From positions 1-45,976 of the forward strand of contig JAHFQV010000021.1 in assembly GCA_023259175.1 (NCBI GenBank): DNA of 45,976 bases, in the 5' to 3' direction. The position numbers and the translations under genes are program-made. This DNA is from Oxalobacteraceae bacterium (lineage in GTDB: Bacteria; Pseudomonadota; Gammaproteobacteria; Burkholderiales; Burkholderiaceae_D). How positions within the stretch are numbered: position 1 is the first letter of the stretch; each line of letters opens with the position of its first letter. The notes beneath the pieces were generated by a model. It saw only the letters and a program-made list of their open reading frames with translations, made no database searches and was not told where the DNA came from. Of the stretch, positions 15,039 to 31,308 are shown in pieces.

Positions 15039-17789
15039 TTAGAACGCTACCGTCGCTTCCAGCGAGATACGGCGGCCGTAGTACTGGTAACCACCCGACC
15101 CGTTCTTGTTACCTAGACGATTTGGCTGGTTGTCAATATAGGCACGGAACGGTGTGTTCGTCAGGTTGTTGACCGATAACTTGAGACGGACTTGGTCATT
15201 AATGCGCCAGCCAGCGTATAAGTCGACGGAAGCTTCGCTCTTTAGTCGCGACAACTGACTTGAATTCCAACCAAGAACATTGGTATATGGGCTGTGATAT
15301 TTGTAGCCAATCCCGACATCGAATGTGCCGTCGTTGTACCAAAAATCGGCTTCAGCGGTGTGCTTAGCTAGGCCGCTCAGTGGTAGTGGATTTCCGTCCG
15401 GCACCAATTCGTGCAAATTGGAATCGACAAACGAGTAGTTGGTGTTGATACCAAAATTTTCCATGTGCGGAATGAAGTACAAGGGCGTTTTGAAGGTCAG
15501 TTCCGCACCGTTGATATTCCCGCCATCGCCGTTGGCCGGAGCCGTCATCAAATAGTCGTGGCCGCCTAAAGTTTGGTGGGACTGCTTGTAACCGATGACC
15601 GACTTGACCCATTTTCGATAGACGGTAATTGCAGCCAGTGCTTCCTTGTGGAAGTACCACTCGTAAGACACGTCAAGCTGCTTGGCGCGGAAGGGATCGA
15701 GGTCTGGATTGCCGCCGCTACCATTGAGTTGATAATTACTTGAGTTTGGCGAAGGCATGTCGAGCGTACGACCGGTACGCAATTCGTCCAGTGGTGGTCG
15801 GGAGACCACTTTTGCTGTGGCGAGGCGCAGGATGTGGTCGTGATCGAGCATGAAATTGATCGTCGCGCTGGGCAGAACGTCGGTATATGATTTTTCCCAG
15901 CTTGATGGCGAGTACACAAAGGGATGTTGCAGCCAAACTCCGCCACCACTGTCGTACCAGCCACCGCCGACTCCATCGCTACCTTTACTTAGCGTATTGA
16001 CCTGAACCACGCGCACGCCAAAGTTACCGGTCACATTGACACCGAACAGGCGTGATTCGTAATTCGCTTTGGTGTAGGCCTCACGAACTTTCTCCTCCAC
16101 GCGCCAAGTAGCAAGCGGATCTTGGGTTGCCAGCGATGGATTCCAGCTACCGACAGCGATGCGTGAAATATCTTCCAAATTGCCTGCCATCATGGTCGGC
16201 ACGTTGAGTGTAGGCATGGAAAATTCGCGAATCAATCCAGTGTAAGCCGACATTGATTGGTTTATGACTGCCTGCTTCCATTCATAGTGACCATGTTGCT
16301 TTTCGCGGTTGGCGGCACGTACGCCGAACGCTATCGAAGTGATTGGCGAGTCGTCTATCTGGCGAGTTGCATTGAACGTAATCCCGTCAACCCGGTCACG
16401 CACGGTATCTGGCCCCCAATCGGTCGCTTCCATTCTCACATGACCCGCACTATCTGTCGGAAAGCTGATCGGACTGGTCGAGATCGTTGGCTTATTGAGG
16501 AAATTGTATGAGACTGTATCGGCCGTACCTTTGAAAGTGATCCCACGCCAAGTTCCGTCACGCCACGCGCGTGAGGTAGAAAGATCGGAGTCTAGCGTCC
16601 ACTGGTTGGCGCTCCACTTAAGATTGATACCGTAGGCATTGAGCGCCTTGTCTTCGACCCAGTGTCCAAAGGTGTAATCGACCTCCTTGTTGCTGTGCTT
16701 CATTGTGCCGCCTACAATATCACCATCCGACAAAATGTACGACGAACCAGGTGTTGAGTACGGATTGGCTCCCCAGCCTACGAACCAGTCATTGAACTTG
16801 GTCTGACTCTGCTGTGAATCGATACCAATCTTTGAGTACAGGGCATCGGCCTTGATTTTGAAATTCCCGGAACGCCATTCCACCGTTGCCAGCGCACCTT
16901 TACGTTCTTCTGTGCCGCGATTGAATTCGTCCGAACCGCCCCATGGTGACGGCGTGGGTTTGGTGCCGCCCCTAACATCGTCAGCATGGTCAATGTTGTA
17001 CCCTTCGCTACCTAGCGCTTCGCTGGCATTCTTTTGCTTCTGATAGGTCACGCCAAGCGCTACTGCAAGATTCTGATCGAAGCGTTTAACCCAGCTCGCT
17101 CCGAAACGTCCACCGAGTGGGTTGTAGTCTGGTGCGCCCTTGCCTTCAGTGTAATAAACCGGACCGCCAGTGAGCGTCACCGACTTGCCAGTGTGCTCAA
17201 GCGGGCTGACCGTACCGATGTCGATTGTCGCGCCGATACCACCTGCGACCATATCCGCAGACTGTGATTTGTAGACTTTTGCCGTTGAAACGACCTCGGT
17301 CGGAAAGATTTCCCAGCGCACGTTGCGACCCGGTTCCGACGAAGCGATCTCGCGGCCATTGACCAGACCAAGCGTCAAGCGCTGGCCGAGTCCGCGCACG
17401 GTCACCAGAGATTCATTGCCACGATCGCGCGCGCCGTTGACACCCGGCAGCCGGACCAAAGATTCAGCGACGCTCACATTGGGCATCACACCAAGGTTGT
17501 CGGCCGAGATGACTTCGACGATGAGATCGTCAGTCTTCTTTAAATTCAACGCGCGGTAGAAACTGCCGCGCGAGCCGGTAACGACGACCACGTTCGGGTC
17601 GGCCGGTTCATCCTTTTTCGCCTCAGCGTCTTTGCCCTTACTGGTTTGTTTTTGATCTGCGCCTTGTCCGCTGGTGTCGGATGCGACTTGGGCATGTGCG
17701 TAGCCGGTTGCGAGTGCTGCGGCAATGGCGACCGAGAGGATTGTGAGTGACGTGCCTAGCTGCGGCGAACGTGAATGATATGACGACAT
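15039..17789 (-). CDS. TonB-dependent outer-membrane receptor
   Basis: 916 residues from ATG 17789 (MSSYHSRSPQLGTSL), which has AGGAGA seven bases upstream; a TTG seven codons earlier is unlikely. A signal peptide ends near AHAQ, then a charged linker and the TonB-box-like VVVVTG lead into the plug domain (AESLVRLPGVNGARDRGNESLVTVRGLG, with GGIGATIDI). A large beta-barrel follows, ending in a terminal Phe (SLEATVAF), as outer-membrane barrels do. It resembles the Xanthomonas/Caulobacter type of receptor that takes up oligosaccharides with TonB-ExbBD energy. No STN signalling domain is seen, so it does not drive an anti-sigma relay. Its place beside glycosidases and a galactose symporter suggests a galactoside substrate (inference). 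Confidence 0.93.
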   Translation of the reverse strand: MSSYHSRSPQLGTSLTILSVAIAAALATGYAHAQVASDTSGQGADQKQTSKGKDAEAKKDEPADPNVVVVTGSRGSFYRALNLKKTDDLIVEVISADNLGVMPNVSVAESLVRLPGVNGARDRGNESLVTVRGLGQRLTLGLVNGREIASSEPGRNVRWEIFPTEVVSTAKVYKSQSADMVAGGIGATIDIGTVSPLEHTGKSVTLTGGPVYYTEGKGAPDYNPLGGRFGASWVKRFDQNLAVALGVTYQKQKNASEALGSEGYNIDHADDVRGGTKPTPSPWGGSDEFNRGTEERKGALATVEWRSGNFKIKADALYSKIGIDSQQSQTKFNDWFVGWGANPYSTPGSSYILSDGDIVGGTMKHSNKEVDYTFGHWVEDKALNAYGINLKWSANQWTLDSDLSTSRAWRDGTWRGITFKGTADTVSYNFLNKPTISTSPISFPTDSAGHVRMEATDWGPDTVRDRVDGITFNATRQIDDSPITSIAFGVRAANREKQHGHYEWKQAVINQSMSAYTGLIREFSMPTLNVPTMMAGNLEDISRIAVGSWNPSLATQDPLATWRVEEKVREAYTKANYESRLFGVNVTGNFGVRVVQVNTLSKGSDGVGGGWYDSGGGVWLQHPFVYSPSSWEKSYTDVLPSATINFMLDHDHILRLATAKVVSRPPLDELRTGRTLDMPSPNSSNYQLNGSGGNPDLDPFRAKQLDVSYEWYFHKEALAAITVYRKWVKSVIGYKQSHQTLGGHDYLMTAPANGDGGNINGAELTFKTPLYFIPHMENFGINTNYSFVDSNLHELVPDGNPLPLSGLAKHTAEADFWYNDGTFDVGIGYKYHSPYTNVLGWNSSQLSRLKSEASVDLYAGWRINDQVRLKLSVNNLTNTPFRAYIDNQPNRLGNKNGSGGYQYYGRRISLEATVAF

Positions 17790-18059
17790 GATTTCTCCTA
17801 TTGAAAACAACTATATTTGTAATATTCCGTTAAACCCTTTACGTCAATAGCATGCGGATTCTTCAGATTTTTTTTTGATTGATGTGGCACCGTAAGGTCA
17901 CTGCCTTGACCATTCAAATTTTTTTCATCTTCTTTGGTTCTTGAAGGTATTACCGGACGTAAATCGTGACCCAGCTTCAAGTCTGGCCGCGTTCCTTTTG
18001 ATCGAGACTGAAGCATAAAAGTGCAAAGCATGTCTTACAAATAAAATATTTTGCCTGAA

Positions 18060-18078
18060 CTATACGGATAAGGTATAG
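18060..18078 (-). promoter_or_regulatory. Candidate LysR-type operator upstream of the receptor gene
   Basis: CTATAC-GGATAAG-GTATAG is a perfect 6-7-6 inverted repeat that contains ATAC-N7-GTAT and so fits the T-N11-A rule for LysR-type boxes. On the - strand it lies about 270 bases before the receptor start and just upstream of an A/T-rich stretch (about 18036-18055) that could hold the -10. The local LysR protein at 31309 is the obvious candidate to bind it. No experiment supports this. Confidence 0.45.
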
Positions 18079-18267
18079 CTTGATGGGAGCGTGATTTTTA
18101 GTAACTTGGCTTGAAGTGAAACGGATGCTTTACCCTGAAAATGTGAACTGAGGCAGGATTACTCCTCTTGTTCTTTGCTGCGTCAGGGACATCACACATC
18201 ATGTGAAATTTCAGACGAGGTCCGCACTTCCCTAGGGACGCGCTAAAAAAAGATGGTGTGCTACCAA

Positions 18268-18331
18268 GCAAAGCTGGTATATGTTTTACCGTTTAATTTA
18301 TAGGTCGTTTCAGAAGCGCGACGCTAAACTT
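18268..18331 (+). promoter_or_regulatory. Shared 64-bp promoter block, symporter copy
   Basis: This stretch aligns without gaps to 27347-27410 on the - strand upstream of dgoD, with 51 of 64 bases identical by my count. Blocks in common are GCAAAG, GTATATGTTTT (18277-18287), ATAGGTCGTTT (18300-18310) and TAAACTT (18325-18331). TACC...GGTA (18262-18279) flanks the left end. It ends 245 bases before the symporter start, which implies a long 5' untranslated region. The rest of the 17790-18576 spacer has the LysR-type box and the hairpin listed separately, and no gene. Confidence 0.6.
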
Positions 18332-18522
18332 CCTTCAGCATCCTTTCGTTGACGCACATCATAGGACTAATTTCGTCGTTGATCGCGTTGTGCAAATTGT
18401 TTTACCAAGTTTAGTGAACATGGATAAACATAGGCGCGAGCGAATAGGATAAGGATGTAAACGGACTAATATTTTTGTCCGGGTTTATCTATGTTGGAAT
18501 CTTGCTTTTGTATGTAACGGTC

Positions 18523-18545
18523 AACCAGCCTCTGAGAGGCTGGTT
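18523..18545 (+). promoter_or_regulatory. Perfect 23-base inverted repeat in the symporter leader
   Basis: AACCAGCCTCT and AGAGGCTGGTT are perfect 11-base reverse complements around one G. As RNA it gives a 10-bp stem with a TGA loop, 31 bases before the symporter start and just before its AAGGAG site. No T run follows, so it is not an ordinary terminator. It may stabilise the message, be a processing site or be an operator. Confidence 0.55.
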
Positions 18546-18576
18546 CAGATTTGGTGATTGAAAAAGGAGTATAAAT

Positions 18577-20136
18577 ATGAAATTGTCGTGGCTAGACATG
18601 CTTATCGTGCTGACGTATCTCGTCGGTATCTTCGCGCTTGCGCAATGGGTATCTCGCGAAAAGGGCAACCATCAGAAGGATGCGAAGGATTACTTCCTTG
18701 CCAGCAAGGCGCTGCCTTGGTGGGCCATCGGCACGTCTTTGATTGCGGCGAACATTTCGGCCGAGCAGATTATCGGCATGTCGGGATCCGGCTATGCGCT
18801 CGGACTTGCGATTGCTTCCTATGAGTGGATGGCGGCATTCACCCTCCTGATTGTCGGCCGCTGGTTTCTGCCGGTGTTTTTGCGCAATAACATCAACACG
18901 ATGCCGCAGTTTCTTGAGGAGCGCTATGGTACCCGTATCCGCACCGTGATGGCGGTGTTCTGGCTGATCCTCTACGTCTTCGTTAATCTGACCTCGATTC
19001 TGTGGCTGGGCTCGATTGCAGTGAGTCAAGTCACCGGTATGGATCAGTTTGTGGCGCTCGTGTTATTGGGCGTGTTTTCGCTTGCTTACCAGCTCTACGG
19101 TGGCCTCAAGGCTGTTGCCCTGACCGACTTTGTTCAAGTGTCGCTGCTGGTGATTGGTGGCTTGTTTATTGCTGCGATCACGCTGGGTAAAATCGGTGGC
19201 GGTAGCGCATGGGCTGGATTCCACAGACTGTTCGAAATGCATCCAGCGCATTTCCATATGATCCTGTCGTCGGACAACCCCTACTACAAGGATTTACCTG
19301 GTATTGCTGTTCTCGCCGGCGGCCTGTGGGTCATGAACTTGAGTTATTGGGGTTTTAATCAGTACATCATTCAGCGCGGACTCGCGGCGAAGAATATAGT
19401 TGAGGCGCAGAAGGGCGTGTTGCTTGCGGCATTTATTAAGCTACTGATACCGCTCGTGGTGGTGGTGCCCGGCATTGCCGCGCTCGCGCTCGCGCCAGGA
19501 CTCGCGCGCCCCGACCAGGCTTATCCGACAATGATGGGTCTATTGCCCAGTGGCGTACTCGGACTTGTCTTTGCCGCCCTGGTTGCAGCCATTATGGCCT
19601 CGCTCGCTTCCAAGATTAATTCGATCTCGACGATCTTCACACTCGACTTCTATGCCAAGTTGAGTGGCCCTTGCGAGGATACACATCTAGTTCGCGTTGG
19701 CCGCATTGCGGCGGTTGTTGCGGTGGTGATTGGCGTGCTCAGTGCCAAGCCCTTACTTGGCAGTTTCGATCAAGCCTTTCAATACATTCAGGATTTCACT
19801 GGCTACTTCACGCCGGGCATCACCGTGATTTTTCTGATTGGCTTGTTTTGGTCGCGCGCAAACGAAACGGGGGCGCTCGCTGCGGCAATCGGTTCAGTTG
19901 TGCTATCGATTGCGATTCGTTTTGGCTTGCCAGCGATGCCTTTTATGAACCGTGTCGGTATTGTTTTCCTGCTGTCGCTGTTGCTTGCCATTGTCGTTTC
20001 TTTGCGAAGCAATAGCGTGACGACTAATAATCGCATCCGTACTGATGATGTCAGCTTTCAAACCTCAAAGGGCTTCAATATTGGAGCGCTTGCAGTTACA
20101 TTAATTTTGGTTTTACTCTACACCGTGTTTTGGTGA
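18577..20136 (+). CDS. Na+/galactose (glucose) symporter, SSS family, vSGLT-like
   Basis: 519 residues, about 14 membrane segments. It closely resembles Vibrio vSGLT as I remember it: LPWWAIGTSLIAANISAEQ, IGMSGSGY, GLAIASYEW, YVFVNLTS, PGIAVLAGGLW and SFNIGALAV-like C-terminus. Residues matching the vSGLT sugar site are visible: Q64 (vSGLT Q69), E83 (E88), N254 (N260), Y257 (the Y263 gate), W258 (W264) and K288 (K294). It should import galactose or glucose across the inner membrane with Na+. It lacks an insertion of about 25 residues that vSGLT has after the PGIAA segment. AAGGAG precedes the ATG. The GH5-like gene starts 21 bases downstream, so the two form an operon. Confidence 0.93.
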   Translation: MKLSWLDMLIVLTYLVGIFALAQWVSREKGNHQKDAKDYFLASKALPWWAIGTSLIAANISAEQIIGMSGSGYALGLAIASYEWMAAFTLLIVGRWFLPVFLRNNINTMPQFLEERYGTRIRTVMAVFWLILYVFVNLTSILWLGSIAVSQVTGMDQFVALVLLGVFSLAYQLYGGLKAVALTDFVQVSLLVIGGLFIAAITLGKIGGGSAWAGFHRLFEMHPAHFHMILSSDNPYYKDLPGIAVLAGGLWVMNLSYWGFNQYIIQRGLAAKNIVEAQKGVLLAAFIKLLIPLVVVVPGIAALALAPGLARPDQAYPTMMGLLPSGVLGLVFAALVAAIMASLASKINSISTIFTLDFYAKLSGPCEDTHLVRVGRIAAVVAVVIGVLSAKPLLGSFDQAFQYIQDFTGYFTPGITVIFLIGLFWSRANETGALAAAIGSVVLSIAIRFGLPAMPFMNRVGIVFLLSLLLAIVVSLRSNSVTTNNRIRTDDVSFQTSKGFNIGALAVTLILVLLYTVFW

Positions 20137-20157
20137 GATTTGAATTGCGAGAATTTA

Positions 20158-21369
20158 ATGCGAGAAAGAATTGCTTCTATTTGTTGGCAAAGCATCCTAC
20201 CTGGGTTACTGCTCTCGGTCTCTGCCTCCTTGGCGCAGGCAGGGGAAATAACAGCGCGCTGGAGCGAAACGAAAGCGAATGCGTGGTACGCCGAACAGAA
20301 ATGGATCATCGGGAGTAACTATCTACCAGCGAACGCGATCAATCAACTTGAAATGTGGCAGGCCGAGACATTCGATCCGCAACGTATCGACCTTGAGTTG
20401 GGCTGGGCGCAAAATTTGGGCATGACGACGATGCGCGTCTTCCTGCACAGCTTGTTGTGGCGACAGGACGTGCAGGGATTTGAGCAACGTGTGGCCCAAT
20501 TCCTTGCCATCGCGGACAAGCACGGTATCAAGCCGATATTTGTTCTATTTGACGCTTGTTGGGATCCAAAGCCTAAGCTCGGGCTGCAGCATGCGCCTGT
20601 GCGAGGTGTGCACAATTCGGGCTGGGTGCAGGATCCGGGCGCAGCCCTCACCGATCCAGACGCACTGGTGCAGATGGAGTCATATGTGAAGGGCATTGTC
20701 GGCGCCTTTGCCGACGACAAACGCATACTCGCTTGGGACGTCTGGAATGAGCCGGACAACCCGGGTGGCGGCAACTATGCAGCTTACGAGGTGGAGGCAA
20801 AAGCTAAACTGGTCGCAAAACTCCTGCCACAAGTGTTTGCCTGGGCGCGCAGCGTGAAACCAGTACAGCCGCTCACCAGCCCCTTGTGGCGAGCAGATGG
20901 CGAAAAGCGTACCAATGACTGGTCCGCAGTGAGCACGCTCAATTCGGTGGAACGCGCGCAGATCGAGCAATCGGATGTGGTCAGTTTCCATAGCTATGAG
21001 TGGCCGGAACTCTTCCAGTTGCGCGTGACGCAACTCGCCACCTACCACAGACCGGTGATTTGCACAGAGTATCTCGCGCGCGGCATCGGATCGACCATCG
21101 ACAATGTGTTGCCGCTGGCGAAGAAGCTCAACGTCGGCGCGGTCAATTGGGGTTTTGTCGATGGCAAGGAGCAGACACGTTTTCCCTGGGACTCGTGGGA
21201 CCATCCGTATGTCTCTGCTGAGCCTCTCGTCTGGCATCATGACCTGCTGCATGTCGACGGTACGCCGTACCGACGACACGAAGTTGACATTATCAGCGCG
21301 CTTACACATTCGCCGCGTGGCGAAGTACCGACCGATCCTTTATCGGTTGGGAACTCAAAACAAAAATAG
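20158..21369 (+). CDS. Secreted GH5-like (clan GH-A) glycoside hydrolase
   Basis: 403 residues from ATG 20158 (MRERIASICWQSILPGLLLSVSASLAQA), a clear signal peptide; the TTG at 20140 would put six polar residues before it. The catalytic domain reads NYLPANAINQLEMWQAETFD, TTMRVFLHSLLW, then WDVWNEPDNPG with acid/base E198 and VICTEYLARG with nucleophile E304, the spacing of clan GH-A. Relatives are usually labelled cellulase-family hydrolase or 1,4-beta-xylanase, but the true substrate is unknown to me. The gene follows the symporter by 21 bases and probably shares its transcript. In this locus a beta-linked galactan or mixed hemicellulose is a reasonable guess. Confidence 0.85.
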   Translation: MRERIASICWQSILPGLLLSVSASLAQAGEITARWSETKANAWYAEQKWIIGSNYLPANAINQLEMWQAETFDPQRIDLELGWAQNLGMTTMRVFLHSLLWRQDVQGFEQRVAQFLAIADKHGIKPIFVLFDACWDPKPKLGLQHAPVRGVHNSGWVQDPGAALTDPDALVQMESYVKGIVGAFADDKRILAWDVWNEPDNPGGGNYAAYEVEAKAKLVAKLLPQVFAWARSVKPVQPLTSPLWRADGEKRTNDWSAVSTLNSVERAQIEQSDVVSFHSYEWPELFQLRVTQLATYHRPVICTEYLARGIGSTIDNVLPLAKKLNVGAVNWGFVDGKEQTRFPWDSWDHPYVSAEPLVWHHDLLHVDGTPYRRHEVDIISALTHSPRGEVPTDPLSVGNSKQK

Positions 21370-21448
21370 AAATTTTCCGACTGAGCTTTCGCTGGAAAAG
21401 ACCTCGGCTGCTATTTTTGTGCGTAAGTGCGGCATGTCGCCAAAACTC

Positions 21449-21815
21449 TATTACTCGATGAATTCTGGCGCAGCGGAGAAAAATCAGCGTCCGATTTTCC
21501 CGCGCGCACGAGTTGGTAGAAATGCGCTTCCCTAGCGTACTCGGACTCCTTTTCCTGAATGACGAGCTTGCCATCGATCTCTCGGATGGTGCCAACTAGG
21601 ATGGTGCCAACCATGTGCAGTGCCATTTTTTCGCCAGTCGTCGACTCCGCGAAAATGCTCCAGGTTTGTAGATCTTTCTGCAGGAAATCAAATTCGGCAA
21701 AAATGGGGAGACCCCGTTCTGTCATCATGTCGAGTTCCGCGCTGATCGGTGCTGCACAATTGACCTGCACATGGAGATCAGCGTTCTGAACAAGTACCGT
21801 GTCTTTAACGGTACT
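21449..21815 (-). pseudogene. Decayed 3' fragment of a galactose dehydrogenase gene (galD copy)
   Basis: The - strand translates to a protein about 90 % identical to residues ~189-295 of the intact galD at 23644-24597 (shared CAAPISAELDMMTERGLP and FAEST). It has no Rossmann domain and no start. It carries a 15-base tandem duplication at about 21586-21615 (GGATGGTGCCAACTA-type unit, adding VGTIL/VGTIR), and an internal deletion of about 43 bases near 21472 between short GCT repeats that shifts the frame and destroys the PEFIE end. It lies directly downstream of the lipoprotein glycosidase, so with the intact gene it brackets that gene as a direct repeat. Confidence 0.9.
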
Positions 21816-22046
21816 GTCAAGTTAAAACCATCGCGTACGATACGGTAGAAATCTTCAAAGTAGGCCGTCATTTACTGGCAGCGAAAAATCATCGTGAACT
21901 GCTATGCAAGCGATTTACGCAATGGGCTGACATCGTTGACTCAGATTTCGCTTTTCATTGATTTACTCGAACATTCAAGAATTTATTCGTCCAGTTAAGC
22001 TGACAATGCCCTTGCGACATCAACGGATGCACCCGGACAAATAAGC
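21816..22046. other. Non-coding remnant region with a hairpin
   Basis: The galD similarity stops near 21815. On the + strand a frame of about 45 codons runs to a stop near 21960 (VEIFKVGRHLLAAKNHREL), with no start or ribosome site; it may be the tail of a lost gene, unrecognised. At 22030-22057 CACCCGG and CCGGGTG form a 7-bp stem that overlaps the stop codon of the lipoprotein gene on the - strand; without a T run it is only a possible terminator. Confidence 0.4.
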
Positions 22047-23525
22047 TTAGCCGGGTGTATTAAAATCGATTACGGTCACTGAAAGCGGAGGCAAATTAAC
22101 ATTGAATGTATTGCCTGTAACGCTCTGGGATGCGACTTTGGTCAATGTTGCGTCGGTCGACAGTGGGGTGGAGCCAGCATATACCCATTTTTCGTTCGCA
22201 TAACTGCCAGTATAAGCATTTATGGTGATAGCAATATCATTGGCGGAAGATTGTCCACGATTCAATAAAAATACGGACATTTTATTTTTGGTATCGTTAT
22301 GGGAAACCCACATGGTGACAGGGGCACTACTAGCCGCAACTTTAGGGCCAAGATTGTTATACAAATGTTTAGATATTGCCGGAAACGACCATCCCATAGA
22401 TGTTAATCCATAAGAAGGGCTAAATAAATTATAAGCTTTCGAAGCATCGTCATCCCATCTGGAAGTCCATCCCATTACCGCTTTCGTATACGGCTGACGC
22501 AAGGCTTCAAGGTTCATCTGGATATTGTGCAGCCCTTTCCAAGTAGAGTTGGTATTTGACGCACCCCATTCGTCTACATTGTAACTACTCAATTCAGTAA
22601 CAAACAATGAAAGGGGAGATCCAGGATTATTATTGATTCCTGCGGTGGCTTTTGTCACTTCTGCAACCCAATCCCAGCCCGCTTCGTTGGGATGCCACTC
22701 ATTGTATTGTGTATTTTTAAAAAAACTATAGTTATGTGCGACAAGAAATCCAGCGTTATTTTTTACCAAAGGAATGAGCTTGTTCCAACAATTCGCATCC
22801 ATAAATGACATCGCATTTGCACCAAGCTTGATGGTTGGATCGACAGCTTTTAACAGGGGTGCTATTTCATTGAATATTCCCGCATACAGATCATAAAATT
22901 GCGATTGCAGTATTCCCGTATTCCTCATTTCCAGATCGTCTTCATTGCCTATTTCCCAATATTTAACACCGTATCCTTTGGTAATGTTGGCATATCGAAC
23001 GAAATCTACAGCCGCCTGGATCACTTGTGCGCGTGTCATATTATCAGTGCCATTTTTTGCATAAATAGCCTGAATGCCAATGATTACGACCGGTTCGGCG
23101 CCAGCAGCTTTAGTTTTCGCTACAAATTCATCGAAATCGAATTCCGGTTGCGTTGTCCAGGTATTGGGAATGCGTGTCACGAAATTCAAAAAATGAGCGT
23201 TTGGATCGTGAATTCCAATATCGAATATCGCAGGATTATTTTTATTAAAATGAATTTTATTTCCGGTCATGCCTTCAGGCCATCTCATCGTTTTAGGGCC
23301 AACGTCGCTTATTACGGCTTGTGTTATTGCACCATCTTTCCATGCATTGCTTGAAAAGCCAACGGCATTGTCTGCATTTGAATTACCTCCGATTTGAGGG
23401 ATGGTAACGGTAAGCGATTGCCCTCCAGTAGTCACCACTGGGACTTGAGCAGTATCGCCGCCGCTACTGCCGCTGCCACAAGCGGCAAGGGTGAATGCAA
23501 TCAAGATCATCAACAAATTTTTCAT
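22047..23525 (-). CDS. Lipoprotein glycoside hydrolase, GH51/GH39-like (clan GH-A)
   Basis: 492 residues. The start MKNLLMILIAFTLAACGSG is a lipoprotein signal with lipobox LAAC and C16, so the enzyme is membrane-anchored. The barrel shows YWEIGNEDD with acid/base E195 and FVTELSSY with nucleophile E311, and a beta-sandwich end (about 395-492, finishing PPLSVTVIDF), the architecture of alpha-L-arabinofuranosidases (GH51) and some GH39 enzymes. The exact family is uncertain. Removal of arabinose side chains from arabinogalactan would fit the locus (inference). Its DNA is visibly richer in A and T than its neighbours, and copies of galD sequence lie on both sides, which suggests a later arrival. 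It follows galD by 118 bases on the same strand. Confidence 0.8.
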   Translation of the reverse strand: MKNLLMILIAFTLAACGSGSSGGDTAQVPVVTTGGQSLTVTIPQIGGNSNADNAVGFSSNAWKDGAITQAVISDVGPKTMRWPEGMTGNKIHFNKNNPAIFDIGIHDPNAHFLNFVTRIPNTWTTQPEFDFDEFVAKTKAAGAEPVVIIGIQAIYAKNGTDNMTRAQVIQAAVDFVRYANITKGYGVKYWEIGNEDDLEMRNTGILQSQFYDLYAGIFNEIAPLLKAVDPTIKLGANAMSFMDANCWNKLIPLVKNNAGFLVAHNYSFFKNTQYNEWHPNEAGWDWVAEVTKATAGINNNPGSPLSLFVTELSSYNVDEWGASNTNSTWKGLHNIQMNLEALRQPYTKAVMGWTSRWDDDASKAYNLFSPSYGLTSMGWSFPAISKHLYNNLGPKVAASSAPVTMWVSHNDTKNKMSVFLLNRGQSSANDIAITINAYTGSYANEKWVYAGSTPLSTDATLTKVASQSVTGNTFNVNLPPLSVTVIDFNTPG

Positions 23526-23643
23526 AGGTCTCTCAAAGGAATGCTGCGATTTTGTGGGTGCTTTGTGAAGGTTTTGTAATCTGAGTTTAATTGACCCGAA
23601 GAAGCGCGTTCATCGGTGGGCGGCACGTCTTTCGCGCTGTGTA

Positions 23644-24597
23644 CTACTCGATGAACTCTGGCGCAGCTATGGTTTTACCGATCATGAATGCATCGGCAAC
23701 GATGCGTAGCGGAGAAAAATCGGCGTCCGATTTTCCTGTGCGGACGAGCTGGTAAAAATGCGCATATAGCCCAGCGTACTCGGACTCCTTTTCCTGGAGG
23801 ACGAGCTTGCCGTCGATCTCTAGGATGGTGCCACCCATGTGCAGCGCCATCGTTTCGCCAGCCGTCGACTCCGCGAAAATGCTCCAGGTTTGTAGATCTT
23901 TCTGCAGGAAATCGAATTCGGCACGAATGGGGAGACCTCGTTCCGTCATCATGTCGAGCTCCGCGCTAATCGGTGCTGCGCAATTGAGCGGCACATGGAG
24001 ATCAGCCTTTTGAACCAGTACCGTGTCTTTAATAATCTGCGTCAGTATTGATAGTGCGTTGATTCCGGGATCGAATACGCCCATTCCGCCAGCGGTAAAA
24101 ATCCACTTCTGTCCCGGATGCCATTGCCGCACATTTTCCTTCCAGACGATGCGCAAAGACGTCAAAGTGCGCTGCGCAATCCATTCACGCGTCGTTTCCA
24201 CTGCCGGCGCGAATCGCGAGTGCCAGCTCGCTAGAAGCGAGACGCCGTTTGCCAGTGCCATATTTTTGATCGTTTCGGCTTCGTCTATCGTCGCCGCGGG
24301 CGGTTTCTCCAAGAATACGTGTTTGCCGGCAGCAATGGCTTCCATTGCGAGTGCCCTACGGATCTGCGGCGGCGTACAGATTGCCACCACCTCGATTTCG
24401 GGATGCATCTTCAGCATCTCATTGAGTGTTGAATAGGCGAGCACGTTCGGCGGACGGTCGTGTGGTGAACATCCCGCCACCAGTGTCAGCTTAGGGTTAC
24501 CGTGTATGGCAGGGATATGCTGATCCACAGCGATCTTGCCGAGGCCGACAAGGCCAATCTTCAATGTGCTAGCGGCGTTTGTTTTTTGATTTTGCAT
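23644..24597 (-). CDS. galD: D-galactose 1-dehydrogenase (Gfo/Idh/MocA family)
   Basis: 317 residues. An N-terminal Rossmann fold (LKIGLVGLGKIAVDQHIPAI, 12-31) binds NAD(P), EKPP at 97-100 holds the catalytic-region lysine K98, and a C-terminal alpha/beta domain follows. AWHSR-like SWHSRFAPAV, WHPGQKWI and GVFDPGINALSILT match the Pseudomonas fluorescens galactose dehydrogenase as I remember it. It oxidises D-galactose to galactonolactone, the first step of the pathway. Five bases separate it from dgoA upstream, so it belongs to the dgoD-dgoK-dgoA-galD operon. Its 3' third is duplicated as a pseudogene at 21449-21815. The family is diverse, so the substrate rests partly on context. Confidence 0.87.
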   Translation of the reverse strand: MQNQKTNAASTLKIGLVGLGKIAVDQHIPAIHGNPKLTLVAGCSPHDRPPNVLAYSTLNEMLKMHPEIEVVAICTPPQIRRALAMEAIAAGKHVFLEKPPAATIDEAETIKNMALANGVSLLASWHSRFAPAVETTREWIAQRTLTSLRIVWKENVRQWHPGQKWIFTAGGMGVFDPGINALSILTQIIKDTVLVQKADLHVPLNCAAPISAELDMMTERGLPIRAEFDFLQKDLQTWSIFAESTAGETMALHMGGTILEIDGKLVLQEKESEYAGLYAHFYQLVRTGKSDADFSPLRIVADAFMIGKTIAAPEFIE

Positions 24598-24602
24598 GAT
24601 GG

Positions 24603-25223
24603 CTAGGTCAATAATTCGTTCGCCGCGCTGATGAATTTATGCGCACGTTGTTTCAATTCAACGGGCGATAACTGTGGTGTATACAGTGCGGATCCAATAC
24701 CGAAACCCGTCGCGCCAGCCCGCGCCCATTGTAGCATCGACCCCGGCGTCACACCGCCCACAGGCCATACTACAGTCCCGTGTGGTAGCACCGCTTTCAT
24801 TGCCAGTAGGCTCGCCATGCCGACCATTTCGGCCGGGAAAATCTTCAAAGCATGCGCGCCAGCCTCGAGTGCCGCGAACGCTTCGCTGGGTGTTGCTACA
24901 CCCGGCGCGCACAACATGCCCGCGGCACGCGCATGCCGGATCACGGATGGATTGCAATTCGGAGCAACGAACAGTCGACCGCCTACAGCGGCGACGGCAT
25001 CGACGTTGGCTTCGGTCAGCATTGTACCGCCGCCGACGATGGCTCCCTCCGGTGCCATGCGCACGAGGGCCTCAATTGCTTCCAGCGCGCCGGGTCGGTT
25101 CAAGGGTACTTCGAGCAAGCGGAATCCCGCATCGAACAAGATAGCGCCAACGGTCGGCACTTCGGCCGCGGTCAGACCGCGCAGGATGGCGACGAGCGGC
25201 AGTCCGGTGTACTCAGCGAGCAT
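24603..25223 (-). CDS. dgoA: 2-dehydro-3-deoxy-6-phosphogalactonate aldolase
   Basis: 206 residues, a class I aldolase of the KDPG/KDPGal family. The Schiff-base lysine is K127 in HALKIFPAE and the catalytic glutamate E38 in LLEVPLNRP, matching E. coli DgoA K126 and E37. LPLVAILRGLT at the start and VGGVTPGSMLQWARAGATGFGIGS for the phosphate site are typical of DgoA rather than Eda. It cleaves KDPGal to pyruvate and glyceraldehyde 3-phosphate. The start overlaps the end of dgoK by 11 bases, indicating translational coupling. Confidence 0.95.
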   Translation of the reverse strand: MLAEYTGLPLVAILRGLTAAEVPTVGAILFDAGFRLLEVPLNRPGALEAIEALVRMAPEGAIVGGGTMLTEANVDAVAAVGGRLFVAPNCNPSVIRHARAAGMLCAPGVATPSEAFAALEAGAHALKIFPAEMVGMASLLAMKAVLPHGTVVWPVGGVTPGSMLQWARAGATGFGIGSALYTPQLSPVELKQRAHKFISAANELLT

Positions 25224-26136
25224 GAAAATTTCCTTGGGTTTGTACGCCTACAAAAATACGCGACAGCGCCGCGCAATAGACATCGTGTGGATCCATGATT
25301 TTGACTGCGATATTAAAGAGCGACGCAGCGCGTGCATAGCGTTGTACTAGCGCGTCCGAGCCGATCAGCGTGATCGATTCGCATACCGTATCACTGTCCT
25401 GTGCACCGACGAATTCAGTCCCGATCAATAGGCCACTGACAAAAGCACGCGCCTTCGTCGCAGGCATGGCGCCGCTAACAACACGTGCGCGTACCGAGAA
25501 CAATGCGTTTGTTAAGGTAAGACGTTTGCGCGCAAACACGATACCCGCATCGAAATCCGCCATGTCTTCATGCTCGACACCCACGCGAAGTAGGGATGAC
25601 AAAGTGCCTTCGCGCGACAGCATGGCAAACATTTCTCCGGTCATGTAGGTCGACCAGTGCGCCATGCGGCCAGAATTGATGTACACCCATTTACTGTGGG
25701 TGCCTGGCAATACGACCCAACCACTGCCATGACCGAGCGCAAGTGCGCCGAGCAGTTGCGTTTCTTCGCCTCGCATCACGTCGATTTCGTGGTCGGCATA
25801 ATAGTAACCCGGTACGATAAAACAGCTTTCACCAGCGGCGAGATCCTGCAAGGGTGACAGCGAACGCGGCAAATCACCTAATGAAACGTGGTTGCCGAGA
25901 TAGGCTACTTCCTGCCAGCCTTGCGCGCTGCCGACCATGCCGGACATCACGACGGGAATGTCGGGTGAGACACCCAGCTGCGTGCGTAGTGCGTTAAGCG
26001 ATGCTGCGAACTGACCGTTTTCGGCGAGGATGCCGCGATCATCTTCATGCCGGAGTAGACGCGAGCCAGATGCAGTGACAAGATAGGCGCGACGATTAGT
26101 GCTTCCCCAATCGATACCGAGTAGCTGTTCAGTCAT
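25213..26136 (-). CDS. dgoK: 2-dehydro-3-deoxygalactonokinase
   Basis: 307 residues of the DgoK family (ASKHA fold). The N-terminal phosphate loop LLGIDWGSTNRRAYLV, the SGMVGSAQGWQEVAYL segment, MRGEETQLLGAL, and LPGTHSKWV with GEMF are family signatures. It phosphorylates 2-keto-3-deoxygalactonate with ATP to give KDPGal in the cytoplasm. It lies 32 bases after dgoD and overlaps dgoA by 11 bases, the middle of the operon. Confidence 0.95.
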   Translation of the reverse strand: MTEQLLGIDWGSTNRRAYLVTASGSRLLRHEDDRGILAENGQFAASLNALRTQLGVSPDIPVVMSGMVGSAQGWQEVAYLGNHVSLGDLPRSLSPLQDLAAGESCFIVPGYYYADHEIDVMRGEETQLLGALALGHGSGWVVLPGTHSKWVYINSGRMAHWSTYMTGEMFAMLSREGTLSSLLRVGVEHEDMADFDAGIVFARKRLTLTNALFSVRARVVSGAMPATKARAFVSGLLIGTEFVGAQDSDTVCESITLIGSDALVQRYARAASLFNIAVKIMDPHDVYCAALSRIFVGVQTQGNFHAR

Positions 26137-26168
26137 ATTGAATTACCTCAATTCTACACGTCAGACGC

Positions 26169-27317
26169 TTACCATTCGGCGACGCTGCCGTCGGCATGAT
26201 GCCAGAGCGGATTGCGCCAGTCCGGGGCGTTTTTGCTGGCGGCAATCACTACATCTTCGTCGATCTCGACACCAAGACCCGGCTTCCTCAGCGGCGCAAA
26301 ATAGCCGTCGCGGATGCGGAAGTCTTCGCGGTTGACGACATAGTCGAGTAGTTCGGCACCCTGGTTGTAGTGTATTCCCATGCTCTGCTCTTGCAATACC
26401 GCGTTGTAGGACACGAAATCGACCTGTAGGCAGGCTGCCAGCGCGATAGGGCCAAGCGGGCAATGTGGCGCGAACGCCACGTCGTAGGCTTCGGCCATTG
26501 AAGCGATCTTCAAGCATTCGGTAATGCCGCCTGCGTGTGATAGGTCTGGCTGCGCGATGGCAATACCACCGTCTGAAAAAACACGCTTGAACTCAAAGCG
26601 TGAGAACATGCGTTCTCCCGCAGCCAGTGGGATAGAGGTTGTCTCGGCAAGACGGCGATAATATTCGGCTTGTTCAGCGAGCACGGGTTCCTCGACGAAC
26701 AGTGGGCGGAACGGTTCAAGTTCGCGCAACAGTACTTTGGCCATAGGCGCGGCAACTCGGCCATGAAAGTCGATCCCGAATTCGATGGTGCTGCCGAAGG
26801 TTTCGCGGATTTCGGCAATCCGCGACACCGCCTTATCGACTTTGTTCGCAGAGTCGATGATGCCGAGTTCTTCGGTGCCATTCATCTTGAAGGTGTCGAA
26901 GCCAATCTCCATCAGCGTGCGAATCCCGGTAATGACATCTGCGGGACGATCGCCACCGACCCAGCTGTAGGCTTTCATACGATCGCGCACTAGGCCGCCG
27001 AGCAGTTCGTAGACCGGTACGCCGAGTGCCTTACCCTTGATGTCCCACAATGCGTGGTCGATGCCAGCAATTGCGCTCATCAATATCGGTCCGCCACGGT
27101 AAAAACCCCCGCGATACATGGTTTGCCAGAGGTCGTTGATGCGCATCGGGTTCTGTCCGATAACATAGTGAGATAGTTCATGCACGGCCGCTTCCACTGT
27201 ACGAGCTTTTCCTTCAATAACAGGTTCGCCCCAGCCGACAATGCCTTCGTCGGTCTCGATTTTTAGGAACAGCCAGCGAGGTGCAACACGGTAGGTGGTG
27301 AGTTTAGTAATTCTCAT
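26169..27317 (-). CDS. dgoD: D-galactonate dehydratase
   Basis: 382 residues, the standard length and nearly collinear with E. coli DgoD. The enolase-superfamily residues are at the same numbers: metal ligands D183, E209 and E235, catalytic H185 and H285. [36 protein letters not shown] and ERMFSRF lie in the usual places, and the C-terminus [20 protein letters not shown] is diagnostic. It dehydrates galactonate to 2-keto-3-deoxygalactonate. It is the first gene of the - strand operon; a conserved promoter block ends 29 bases before its start. The LysR gene in this locus, not a GntR-type dgoR, is the nearest regulator. Confidence 0.97.
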
Positions 27318-27346
27318 AATGCCTGACTGAAAAAAGGGAACTGGGC

Positions 27347-27410
27347 AAGTTTACCGCCACGCCTTTAAAACGACCTATGAATAAAGCGCGAAAACATATA
27401 CAAACTTTGC
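27347..27410 (-). promoter_or_regulatory. Shared 64-bp promoter block, dgoD copy
   Basis: Read on the - strand this aligns without gaps to 18268-18331 upstream of the symporter (51 of 64 identical). Shared words lie at 27405-27410 (GCAAAG), 27391-27401 (GTATATGTTTT), 27368-27378 (ATAGGTCGTTT) and 27347-27353 (TAAACTT). ATAC/GTAT arms at 27398-27401 and 27411-27414, nine bases apart, overlap its upstream end. A TTCATA at 27376-27381 could be the -10, placing transcription start about 50-60 bases before dgoD. It probably contains the operon promoter plus an activator site. Confidence 0.6.
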
Positions 27411-27475
27411 GTATCTTCACGTAAAGTTTATTGGCAATGTCCGGTTTGAAGTGATTGTCTTCGAGTAGAACCCTG

Positions 27476-27491
27476 GGTAAGCATGGTTACC
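27476..27491. promoter_or_regulatory. Imperfect palindrome in the dgoD-GH2 spacer
   Basis: GGTAAGCATGGTTACC is a 16-bp palindrome with one mismatched pair, midway between the divergent dgoD and GH2 genes. It could be an operator for either side. There is no supporting copy elsewhere that I found. Confidence 0.3.
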
Positions 27492-27604
27492 TATATTCCA
27501 TTGATATAAGTTTGGCGAAAACTCACATAACTGTTCTCGCTCCGACTCACCTACCATCACACGCTGTAGTGATTTGCCGATTGGCACCATCCCGCAACAA
27601 TAGA

Positions 27605-27729: not shown

Positions 27730-27753
27730 CCTAAATATAAAAGGAGTACAACT

Positions 27754-30162
27754 ATGCGGAAAGTTTTTGTTCTAGGATATGCGTGGCATCATTTGGTGCT
27801 GACGGTGTTGATTGCAATGATGTCCTTGCAGGTACATGCTGGCAACGGACGTGAGCGCCTGTCGCTCGACCACGACTGGCGTTTCCATCTAGGTGATATC
27901 GTCACGCCGGCGCCGACCACGCATGACGAGACCTATAATGCCACCAAGGCTGGGAATGCCCGCGGTGCGGCGGCCATTGGGTTCAAGGATTCGGACTGGC
28001 GCAAGCTCGACCTGCCGCACGACTGGATGGTTGAAGGTCCGTTCGACGAACATGCCAATATTGCGCAAGGATATCGCCAGCGCGGTATTGGTTGGTATCG
28101 TCGTACACTGATTTTGTCAGAGAGCGATAAGGGTCGGCATGTCGAACTCGAATTCGATGCCATCGCTACCCACGCTACAGTTTGGGTGAATGGTAATCTG
28201 GTCAATCGCAACTGGTCTGGTTACAACGAAATCCGCATTGACGTTACTCCCTACCTTACCTACGGGACCAAGAATCCTAATACCATCGCCATCCGGGTTG
28301 ATGCCGACGCGATGGAGGGGTGGTGGTATGAAGGTGCCGGCATGTATCGTCACACGTGGTTAATTAAGACCAATGCCGTGCACGTCGTTCCAGATGGAAT
28401 GAAGGTCACGCCGCAACAGCTCGACACCAATGCGTGGCAGATTCCTACCGCCATCACACTCGATAACGATGGCAAGCAGGCCGCGCGCGTCGAAGTCGAA
28501 GTGACCGTCACCGACCCCGATGGCAAGCAGATCGCACAACGCACTACATCGGTCAATGTGCCAGTGCTGACGCAAGTGACGGCGCAGTTGCCAATCAAAA
28601 TCCAGCGCCCACAACTGTGGACATTGGCAAAGACAAATCTTTATCGTGTGAGCGCCATTGTACGGCGGGGCGGCAAGGTGCTAGACCAGATTGCGCTCAA
28701 TACGGGCTTTCGCACGATCCGCTTCGATGCCACGAAGGGTCTTTTTGTGAATGGCGAACACGTCAAACTGCAAGGGGTCTGTATCCATCAGGATCACGCC
28801 GGTGTCGGTGTTGCCATCCCTGATGCGATCTGGGAATATCGCTTGCGCCGCCTGAAGGAGTTAGGTGCAAATGCGATCCGCTTCTCGCACAATGCACCGG
28901 CTGCCGAAGTGCTCGACATGGTTGATCGCATGGGTTTTTTGGTCATGGATGAGAATCGCAACTTCAATCCGTCGCCGGACTACATGCGTCAGTTCGAGTG
29001 GATGCTCAAGCGCGACCGCCATCATCCTTCCGTGATTTTGTGGTCGGTATTTAATGAAGAGCCGATGCAGGCGACTGAGGCCGGCTACGAAATGGCACGC
29101 CGTATGGTCGCCACGGCAAAGGCACTCGATGGCACGCGACCGACGACGGCCGCGATGAACGGCGGCTTTCTTACGCCCCTCAATGTCTCCCATGCAGTCG
29201 ATGTCGTCGGCGCAAATTACAACGTGCCGGAATACGATAAATTTCACGCAGCGTATCCAGATAAGCCTTTCACCAGTTCGGAAGATACCTCGGCCTTCAT
29301 GACGCGTGGCGAGTTCGCAACGGATGAGGTACGCCATTTTTCAACCAGCTACGATGACGATTTTACGCCATGGGGCAACAGCCATCGGGATGCGTGGCAG
29401 GCGATTGCTACACGCGATTTCGTTGCAGGTGGTTTCATCTGGACCGGCTTTGACTATCACGGCGAGCCAACACCGTTCAAGTGGCCCTCGGTCGGTTCTA
29501 GCTTTGGCATTATGGATATCAATGGCTTTCCTAAGGCCGCGTTTTACCTGCACCAGACGCAGTGGGTCAAAGATCGGCCGCTGCTGTATATCGCGCCACA
29601 CTGGAACTGGTCAGGTAAGGAAGGGCAGGAGATTCGCGTGATGGTGATGAGCAATGCCGAACGTGTGAAGCTCTTGCTCAATGGACGCGAAATCGGCGAG
29701 CAGGCGGTTGACAATTACCGCATGAATTTTTTCAAGGTGGCCTATGCGCCTGGCAAGCTGGAGGCCATCGCTTACAGCAATGGCAAGGAAGTGATGCGCA
29801 CCAGCGTAGAGACCACCGGTGCTGCCGTGGCAATTGAGCTTGTGCCAGATCGTTCAGTAATGACTGGCGATGGCCGTGATGCCATGCCGGTCACAGTTCG
29901 CGCAGTCGATACTGAAGGACGTGTCGTACCAGTTGAAAGTCTTGAGGTGCGCTTTGATGTTAGCGGTGCTGGCCGTTTACTTGGGCACGGCAATGGCGAT
30001 CCGACTTCGCATGAAGATGAACAAGGTAAGACGCGCAAGCTGTTTAATGGGTTGGCGCAACTGATCGTGCAAAGTAAGCCGGAAAGTCAAGGTAGTATCG
30101 TGATCAGTGTGACCGCTACAGGCATGAAATCCGCGACACTTACCATCCCCATTCAGAATTGA
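27754..30162 (+). CDS. GH2 family beta-galactosidase, exported
   Basis: 802 residues with a signal peptide (cleavage near VHAGNG, about 29). Order of domains: GH2 sugar-binding jelly roll (about 35-210, with LPHDWMVEGPF and GIGWYRRTL), an immunoglobulin-like domain (about 212-320), the TIM barrel (about 325-620) and C-terminal DUF4982 plus Ig-like domains. GVCIHQDHAGVG, IRFSHNAPAAEVLDM and VILWSVFNEEPMQ give acid/base E435; the nucleophile is most likely E510 in FTSSED. This type is usually a beta-galactosidase and could free galactose in the periplasm for the symporter. It heads a + strand group with the lactonase (101 bases on) and the LysR gene. Beta-glucuronidase activity is less likely given the pathway genes. 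Confidence 0.9.
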   Translation: MRKVFVLGYAWHHLVLTVLIAMMSLQVHAGNGRERLSLDHDWRFHLGDIVTPAPTTHDETYNATKAGNARGAAAIGFKDSDWRKLDLPHDWMVEGPFDEHANIAQGYRQRGIGWYRRTLILSESDKGRHVELEFDAIATHATVWVNGNLVNRNWSGYNEIRIDVTPYLTYGTKNPNTIAIRVDADAMEGWWYEGAGMYRHTWLIKTNAVHVVPDGMKVTPQQLDTNAWQIPTAITLDNDGKQAARVEVEVTVTDPDGKQIAQRTTSVNVPVLTQVTAQLPIKIQRPQLWTLAKTNLYRVSAIVRRGGKVLDQIALNTGFRTIRFDATKGLFVNGEHVKLQGVCIHQDHAGVGVAIPDAIWEYRLRRLKELGANAIRFSHNAPAAEVLDMVDRMGFLVMDENRNFNPSPDYMRQFEWMLKRDRHHPSVILWSVFNEEPMQATEAGYEMARRMVATAKALDGTRPTTAAMNGGFLTPLNVSHAVDVVGANYNVPEYDKFHAAYPDKPFTSSEDTSAFMTRGEFATDEVRHFSTSYDDDFTPWGNSHRDAWQAIATRDFVAGGFIWTGFDYHGEPTPFKWPSVGSSFGIMDINGFPKAAFYLHQTQWVKDRPLLYIAPHWNWSGKEGQEIRVMVMSNAERVKLLLNGREIGEQAVDNYRMNFFKVAYAPGKLEAIAYSNGKEVMRTSVETTGAAVAIELVPDRSVMTGDGRDAMPVTVRAVDTEGRVVPVESLEVRFDVSGAGRLLGHGNGDPTSHEDEQGKTRKLFNGLAQLIVQSKPESQGSIVISVTATGMKSATLTIPIQN

Positions 30163-30263
30163 AATGAGTAGCAGAGCAAAAGGCAGCGACGGCGTGTCGC
30201 ACGAGCGAGATGCTCATCTTATTAGCAATCGGCGCAGATCGCCGTGACAGAAAGGATCTAGAT

Positions 30264-31187
30264 ATGCAAGTAGACGTAATGTCTCTAGCACTGCGCCAAC
30301 AGGCGGCACTGGGTGAAGGACTCGTGTGGGATCAATCTCGCCAGTGCTGGTGGTGGACTGATATCGAGGCTGCCATGGTTTATTGCTGGGATGGTGTAAA
30401 TTCGCTTCAGAGTTGGCGTGCGCCGGACCGAGTGGGTTCACTGGTTCTATGTCAGTCGGGGGCTTTGTTACTGGGCATGTCCAAGCGCATTGGCTTAGCG
30501 CGTAAGCCTAGTGAAGGCGACGCATTGGAAGTGGAATTTTTAGCTGCAGTGGATTCGGCCGAACCGCGCACGCGCATCAATGATGGAAGAGTTGATCGTG
30601 CAGGCAACTACGTCTTTGGGACGCTCAATGAATCGACAGATCGGCGTCCAATCGGTAGCTTCTATCAGTTTTCCCGTCGTTTTGGCTTGCGCCGCCTGGC
30701 ATTGCCTGCAGTTTCGATTGCCAATAGTATTTGCTTTAGTCCAGACGGTGCGACCATGTACTTCAGCGACACCCTGCAAGGCATAATTCAGCAATGCGAT
30801 TACGATGCTGTTTCGGCCAAGGTGAGTCGGATCCGCCACTTCGCTCGGCCAGATATTTTGCAGGCGGCACCGGATGGCGCAATTGTGGACCGCGAGGGTT
30901 GCGTGTGGAATGCCGAGTGGGGTAGTGGCACGCTGGCACGGTATAATGTGCGCGGCGAATTACTGATGCGGGTAGCGCTGCCAGTTCCACAGCCGACTTG
31001 TCCGGCCATCGGTGGCGCACAGCTTAACAGGCTACTGGTTACTAGTGCACGTTGTGATCTGGATCGAGATGATTTGGCACGTTGGCCATTGTCGGGCAGC
31101 GTGTTTGGCTGTATGTTAGAACAGCCATTAGGCTTGGAAGATGCACTGTTCAATGACATTGAATCGGACAATGAACTTTCTATTTAA
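30264..31187 (+). CDS. SMP-30/gluconolactonase family lactonase, probable galactonolactonase
   Basis: 307 residues from ATG 30264, which follows AAAGGA; the in-frame ATG at 30210 has no ribosome site. The six-bladed propeller shows the metal ligands E18 (LGEGLVWD), N154 (IANSICFSPDG) and D204 (PDGAIVD), the same positions as in human SMP-30, and RINDGRVDRAGN with N106 for substrate binding. It should open the galactonolactone made by GalD to galactonate, filling the only missing step of the pathway. No signal peptide, so cytoplasmic. The gluconolactone- versus galactonolactone preference cannot be read from the sequence. Confidence 0.87.
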   Translation: MQVDVMSLALRQQAALGEGLVWDQSRQCWWWTDIEAAMVYCWDGVNSLQSWRAPDRVGSLVLCQSGALLLGMSKRIGLARKPSEGDALEVEFLAAVDSAEPRTRINDGRVDRAGNYVFGTLNESTDRRPIGSFYQFSRRFGLRRLALPAVSIANSICFSPDGATMYFSDTLQGIIQQCDYDAVSAKVSRIRHFARPDILQAAPDGAIVDREGCVWNAEWGSGTLARYNVRGELLMRVALPVPQPTCPAIGGAQLNRLLVTSARCDLDRDDLARWPLSGSVFGCMLEQPLGLEDALFNDIESDNELSI

Positions 31188-31224: not shown

Positions 31225-31308
31225 CATACCTCGGTGGATAGTGGTACATGTGCTGAACGCTTGACTGAAGGTGTGTCACGTCATTTGCCTCGACTTTTTG
31301 GAGTTATC

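Follow-up and report, generated by a model that had tools for sequence, protein, structure and literature searches.

A candidate LysR-dependent promoter module at four promoters of a galactose gene cluster in an Oxalobacteraceae bacterium

The galactose gene cluster and its shared 64-base block

The first 45,976 nucleotides of contig JAHFQV010000021.1 from an Oxalobacteraceae bacterium (assembly GCA_023259175.1), referred to here as the window, hold what is, judging by its protein-family matches, the gene set of De Ley-Doudoroff galactose catabolism. Two control regions of this cluster, one in front of a sodium/sugar symporter gene and the other in front of dgoD, share a 64-base block, in which a sequence-only reading of the same DNA had seen an activator-plus-promoter module. 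The comparisons reported here make it likely that the block is a LysR-activated promoter within a galactose regulon of four such modules, and one copy of the block probably derives from the other. The genes concerned are listed below; the two operons named (dgo and galA-SGL-lysR) are predicted groupings.

15039..17789, minus strand: TonB-dependent receptor (TIGR01782, 596 bits), with its ATG at 17789 after AGGAGA
18577..20136, plus strand: sodium/sugar symporter (PF00474), matching the structures 2xq2 and 3dh4, 'sodium/glucose cotransporter', at E 1.2e-153 and 5.1e-144
23644..24597, minus strand: D-galactose (or L-arabinose) 1-dehydrogenase-like enzyme
24603..25223, minus strand: dgoA, 2-dehydro-3-deoxy-6-phosphogalactonate aldolase (NF006600, 247 bits)
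25213..26136, minus strand: dgoK, 2-keto-3-deoxygalactonokinase (PF05035)
26169..27317, minus strand: dgoD, D-galactonate dehydratase, leading the dgo operon (NF010624, 679 bits)
27754..30162, plus strand: galA, GH2 beta-galactosidase (NF041462, 1093 bits; cut-off 900)
30210..31187, plus strand: SGL, SMP-30/gluconolactonase-like sugar lactonase (PF08450)
31309..32274, plus strand: LysR-type regulator (Pfam HTH_1 and LysR_substrate), last gene of galA-SGL-lysR

Direct comparison of positions 18268-18331 (plus strand) with 27347-27410 (minus strand) gave 51 identical bases of 64 without a gap, including the four identical runs quoted in the sequence-only reading, and the similarity ended at the block edges, as had been claimed; the 150 bases on either side matched at 53/150 and 51/150. 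The block lies 29 bases from the dgoD start (27317) and 245 bases from the symporter start (18577); both distances had been given correctly, in swapped order relative to the two blocks. When all ungapped 64-mers of the window were compared with one another on both strands (best pair per diagonal, at least 44 matches), three pairs surpassed the block pair, all of them from one duplicated gene fragment (approximately 21.47-21.78 kb versus 23.70-24.00 kb). Pairs of this quality are expected by chance about 2e-10 times in the window, or 1e-8 times if the block's own composition is used, which places the pair far above chance. No third copy was detected in the 4.03-Mb assembly (233 contigs), either by BLAST at E <= 0.001 or by two long exact words.

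The structures 2xq2 and 3dh4, the closest solved ones to the symporter, are known as vSGLT, a bacterial sodium/galactose transporter, and the dehydrogenase-like enzyme matched both the D-galactose-1-dehydrogenase 4ew6 (E 6.6e-95) and the L-arabinose 1-dehydrogenase 6jnk (E 6e-90). A GH1 enzyme is also encoded in the window. The open reading frame of the regulator had been listed from a GTG at 31234, with 25 extra residues that have no counterpart in most aligned relatives; the start is probably the ATG at 31309. Two further reading frames, 20140-21369 (plus strand; sub-threshold GH10 match) and 22047-23525 (minus strand; weak ArfA-like match), belong to no convincing family and matched no solved structure. 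Positions 21449-21776 are a partial copy, 88-92% identical by pieces, of the 3' part of the galactose dehydrogenase gene (23642-24000), and this copy lies beyond reading frame 22047-23525, as if that frame had entered with the duplication.

A promoter module held in register across the family

An ungapped module was found directly before dgoD in 16 of the 23 upstream stretches inspected from relatives, and a seventeenth (locus L035) lay just beyond the inspected stretch. Its elements follow the order TAT-N11-ATA, approximately 18 bases, CAT-N3-T, approximately 20 bases, and TANNCT. The 16 stretches of the first alignment were chosen by eye; L035 was added in a set of 34 sites, which was drawn from 45 matches scoring above 4, the 11 that were dropped being repeats of the same place or of close species together with two weak matches (L036 9928 and L172 12682). 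Thirty-eight sites, 34 of them from other genomes, align over 75 columns with no gap; columns A3, A16, T17, A37, T38 and A63 are invariant, and the spacing from the box centre (column 10) to the -10 element (columns 62-67) is constant throughout. With TANNCT read as the -10, and the start site placed from it, the box is centred near -64 and the CAT word falls near -35. In the window, four modules were recognized:

18004..18078, minus strand: third module, before the TonB-dependent receptor (ATG 17789), predicted -10 TATGCT at 18012-18017
18264..18338, plus strand: symporter promoter module, containing block 18268-18331, predicted -10 TAAACT at 18325-18330
27340..27414, minus strand: dgo operon promoter module, containing block 27347-27410, predicted -10 TAAACT at 27348-27353
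27491..27565, plus strand: fourth, weaker module, before the beta-galactosidase gene galA (ATG 27754), rank 4 in the window

All four modules are intergenic and directed at genes of the cluster. The promoter pair of the sequence-only reading is thereby retained, although the regulon is larger than that reading had recognized: it has four promoters, and the strongest site is that of the TonB receptor. This site holds a perfect CTATAC-N7-GTATAG box and was both the top match in the window with models built from relatives only (E 1.7e-4 under model R1; position weight matrix scores of 29.5 and 44.7) and the best match across the whole of its own genome. The symporter and dgoD modules ranked second and third in the window with relatives-only profiles, each keeping nine of the ten nearly invariant family positions, and the galA site kept all ten. 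The dgoD copy occupies the same position as the relatives' module directly before dgoD; it was identical to their dgoD sites at a mean of 31.9 of 75 columns in register, and a slide of one base lowered this mean to 17.3 and 20.7.

Under a relatives-only profile of 16 sites, ungapped scores in the window were 29.5 for the TonB-receptor site, 13.9 for the symporter, 1.1 for dgoD, -1.7 for galA and -9.5 for the fifth match, while the best score in 60 Markov windows averaged -4.2 and reached 3.0 at most. The 34-site relatives-only profile gave 44.7, 15.7, 10.8 and 8.3 in the same order, and 1.3 for the fifth match. The best score of 300 column-permuted versions of this profile had a mean of 1.7 (standard deviation 4.0, maximum 19.4), their second best was at most 6.9 and their third at most 4.5. 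None of 100 Markov windows had a best score above 12.7 or a fourth best above -0.9. Taken singly, the TonB-receptor score alone exceeds every control, and no control matched the window's own second, third and fourth scores. The same four sites led a search of the window with R1, the last three weakly (E 0.16, 0.59 and 0.86). A genus-wide R1 scan with stricter filters returned, in the own genome, the TonB-receptor site (E 0.015) and one match elsewhere (E 0.41). Model R2, which comprises all 38 sites and hence includes the four own ones, found four sites with E < 0.05 in the own genome, all in this cluster, the next match lying elsewhere at E 0.37.

T4 and A16 are present at both the TonB-receptor and the galA sites, which therefore hold a T-N11-A box with partial dyad symmetry. 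In the family register, the box was not found in the two block copies, which have A (symporter) or C (dgoD) at column 4 and keep the right half. Assignment of the block copies to the module follows from homology and register, not from the box, and because the left T is lost, their affinity for LysR may be lower than that of the TonB-receptor site.

Among 43 genus genomes, 12 matches had E < 1e-3, and all preceded dgoD (8) or galactosidase-related genes (4), namely a GH35 beta-galactosidase, two GH27 alpha-galactosidases and a TonB receptor-GH35 pair; six of the eight dgoD sites are part of the model and the four others lie outside it. A weaker match (E 0.05) stands before a TonB receptor followed by a GH53 galactanase. 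Orthologues of the LysR protein, 65-75% identical, occur in nine other genus genomes, and the eight genomes with E < 1e-3 sites all fall within the ten that encode a LysR of at least 65% identity, with none among the 33 others.

In 294 family genomes, 58 (own included) carried a module match at E <= 0.01. The 90 matches outside the own genome include sites used to build R2; 84 of them, with one doubtful case counted, precede a galactose- or sugar-type gene, either of the dgo set or for a lactonase, a galactosidase, a TonB receptor, sugar transport or a likely sugar enzyme. Reference proteins assigned 73 of the 90: dgoD 39, SGL 12 (often continuing into lysR), TonB receptors 7, dgoK or dgoK-like 6, GH2-like 4, GH35 2, GH27 1, a short-chain dehydrogenase before GH35 1, and a doubtful symporter-like gene (L257) 1. 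Pfam and NCBIfam marked 11 of the remaining 17 as sugar-related or likely so: ChvE 3 (L250 was tested with the NCBIfam ChvE equivalog, and L251 and L255 were taken as alike by size of the reading frame), YtfQ-like 2 (below the curated cut-off), TonB receptor 2, FAA hydrolase 2, GH43 1, and an alpha/beta hydrolase followed by a TonB receptor 1. Ten of 15 family genomes examined, a set picked mainly for its unusual matches, encode a LysR with 40-72% identity; the five lacking it comprised two with non-sugar matches, two with doubtful or unassigned ones and one with a YtfQ-like gene. The sequence-only reading had proposed looking at whether other copies precede galactoside genes, and across these genomes they mostly do precede galactose or galactoside genes. 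What genome comparison shows is the module itself and the register in which it lies, the genes beside it, its occurrence together with LysR and, as described below, the surplus of identity between the two copies.

In six loci of other genera (L221, L236, L234, L254, L258 and L261), a weaker module stands before FAA-hydrolase or dgoK-like genes. In L221, L234, L236 and L254 a LysR is found on the opposite side, with 44 and 47% identity where it was fully measured (L269, L271), and none was seen beside the module in the short stretches covered for L258 and L261. These loci are perhaps a sister regulon for another sugar.

Probable copying of the promoter and competing explanations

The symporter and dgoD copies are identical at 28 of 34 family-conserved columns and at 23 of 30 unconserved ones, the division being a cut of 0.4 bits that we chose. 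From the family, an identity of 31% is expected at such low-information columns (P 3e-7). In the three comparisons made with the own TonB-receptor and galA sites, 4, 6 and 7 of the 30 columns were shared, and four within-genome pairs in other genomes shared 9, 11, 17 and 18. No match to either copy above 39/64 was found in 2.47 Mb of relatives' DNA (273 loci, redundant). Because identity is about as high at unconserved columns as at conserved ones, the likeness of the two promoters is probably that of a segment copied once; of the sequence-only interpretation, the activator-plus-promoter module is upheld by comparison, and the description of the similarity as separate conserved words is not (23/30 versus 28/34).

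We regard the dgoD promoter as the more likely origin: promoters of dgoD are widespread, and the symporter is absent from the 42 other genus genomes, in which no orthologue was found at E <= 1e-60. A sample of 398 other genomes from the order yielded none at E <= 1e-150. The closest relative seen (L095, 86% identical) sits downstream of dgoK, with which it is presumably co-transcribed, so that its own promoter is not comparable. A further reading, slightly less likely than not, is a promoter capture in which a copy of no more than the 64-bp regulator-plus-promoter footprint of dgoD wired a symporter found in none of the 42 other genus genomes into a resident galactose regulon. If so, this footprint alone would be the smallest unit by which LysR control can be transferred, and the GH35 gene of genome G004 may have been recruited likewise; if the copying holds, it would offer a clean case of a new gene entering a regulon by duplication of a promoter footprint. 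In G004 (L036/L170), the dgoD and GH35 promoters match at 54/75, compared with 53/75 for the symporter-dgoD pair here, a possible second case of promoter copying.

The same G004 pair can be called upon for another account, in which one regulator keeps two independent sites alike by constraint only, with no copying. Both sites here look functional and lie in the same genome, as this account would have it; we nonetheless consider it unlikely, given that the identity extends to unconserved columns about as fully as to conserved ones and that the four pairs from other genomes did not exceed 18 of 30. Less probable still is an arrangement in which the block copies serve some other lineage-specific regulator, control by LysR is confined to the TonB-receptor and galA sites, and the match in register is residual. 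The degenerate left half of the LysR box in both copies would fit it, as would the near absence of the block's private letters from the own TonB-receptor and galA sites. Nevertheless, the dgoD copy is the positional equivalent, in register, of 16 other module-aligned dgoD promoters, both copies keep nine of ten nearly invariant positions and rank second and third with a relatives-only profile, and, of the 15 ungapped stretches in the relatives' DNA that resemble the block most, 13 are LysR-module sites. That the block belongs to a dispersed repeat or mobile element is very improbable: a repeated element with 16-nt inverted ends does lie nearby at 27601-27733, but it ends approximately 190 bp from the block, the block has two copies only in the genome, both in this cluster, and its pattern had no exact match in viral contigs. 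Genome scans led us to reject this reading and to treat 27601-27733 as a separate element. Chance, at about 1e-8 expected pairs and with no other such pair in the window except the gene-fragment duplication, has a negligible claim.

The element at 27601-27733 has ends TAGAACTTACGCAAAA, 94% complementary, and lies inside the predicted galA leader; 43 BLAST matches to it, full or partial, were obtained in the own genome. It looks like a small mobile or repetitive extragenic palindromic (REP)-like element.

Several observations weigh against a LysR-activated, copied promoter, which we continue to prefer. The left T of TAT-N11-ATA is missing in both block copies, which may be weak LysR sites or sites of another factor. 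Six loci (L046, L057, L070, L073, L087 and L090) have no site directly before dgoD, mostly where dgoD follows dgoA. The symporter, dgoD and galA scores were each reached by some single control (19.4 versus 15.7 for the symporter), and the dgoD score of 1.1 under the 16-site profile is within the Markov range (maximum 3.0). Under R1 the block copies reach only E 0.16 and 0.59 in the window, and the whole-genome scan, with its stricter filters, listed neither of them at E <= 1. Reversed-sequence controls attained 14.6, 6.1 and 3.2 in 194 scans, so matches of approximately 4-15 in the search that supplied the 34 sites are individually weak. Among the family matches, two precede unrelated genes (glutamate dehydrogenase and D-serine ammonia-lyase) and four precede genes with no assignment (among them L264, not scanned); the L257 symporter-like match is 29% identical over 176 aa and has no ungapped site, and identity is 24-25% for the GH2 matches, 27-29% for four dgoK-like ones and 27-32% for two of the seven TonB receptors. 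The P value for copying is post hoc, the pair having been found through its similarity and the 0.4-bit cut being our own.

A further point of this kind is that no sigma-70 consensus promoter was found in the symporter or dgoD region; absence of this consensus is usual for activated promoters, and thus fits an activated promoter here. A sigma-54 promoter, whose consensus is GG-N10-GC at -24/-12, was also considered; by eye, TGGC-N8-TTGC occurs in the dgoD copy only and not in the symporter copy, and it was taken as chance.

Proposed regulation and comparison with known systems

In the mechanism that we propose, the LysR protein (31309-32274) would sit on the upstream box centred near -64 (consensus TAT-N11-ATA) and reach the second element near -35 (CAT...T); an inducer from the galactose pathway or from galactose oxidation would then allow RNA polymerase to work from a promoter with a -10 but no good -35. 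We infer the LysR binding, the inducer, and activation rather than repression. The four modules would turn on the TonB receptor for outer-membrane uptake, the sodium/sugar symporter for inner-membrane uptake, galA-SGL-lysR for galactoside cleavage, the lactonase and the regulator itself, and the dgo operon for De Ley-Doudoroff catabolism. Two suggestions of the sequence-only reading, that the activator is likely a LysR protein and that import and catabolism of galactose are probably switched together, gain support from the comparisons. Outer- and inner-membrane uptake, galactosidases and De Ley-Doudoroff catabolism would thereby be tied to one predicted regulator, and the module offers a candidate motif at which a LysR group linked to galactose, and present across a single betaproteobacterial family, may bind. 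Literature searches, in which most subscription papers were lacking, turned up neither a motif nor a regulon described for this LysR in the family.

The general layout of LysR promoters, as given in the introduction of PMC8407307, places a regulatory binding site (RBS) near -65 and an activation binding site (ABS) at -35/-10. The module resembles it in having a box at about -64, a second element at about -35 and no strong -35 hexamer, and departs from it in the two block copies, where the left T of T-N11-A is missing.

DgoR is, in E. coli, the name of a GntR-family protein. PMC5507952 describes a reconstructed DgoR regulon of Halomonas whose members include De Ley-Doudoroff genes, a lactonase of COG3386 and a galactose transporter of the SSS family, much as the present cluster joins De Ley-Doudoroff genes, a lactonase and a sodium/sugar symporter; the likeness drawn here is one of gene content.

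GbpR is described in PMC4086400 as an Agrobacterium LysR protein regulating a sugar-binding protein gene (chvE) when sugars are present. In three genomes of one other genus (L250, L251 and L255), chvE-type genes are preceded by the module, twice per locus, with a LysR of 43-44% identity approximately 10 kb away on the same contig; the system may be likened to GbpR by description. In the own cluster no chvE was noted. A LysR adjoining chvE was rejected as the counterpart of our regulator, the neighbour in L265-L267 being only 23-26% identical. These chvE-type modules provide a lead to a GbpR-type operator.

GamR (XAC1767) is linked, in PMC7831014 and PMC8245568, to galactose metabolism, and the LysR protein of this cluster is likewise tied to galactose genes. 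In eight Xanthomonas loci, a LysR approximately 50% identical to our own lies near dgoA-dgoD-SGL-dgoK and is presumably GamR; a weak module-like site stands beside it in seven of the eight (4.1-6.2 bits, within reach of the reversed-sequence controls), and a Pseudoxanthomonas match of 6.6 is likewise individually weak. The kind of regulon represented by GamR and GbpR is already known, and this cluster would be a new example of it.

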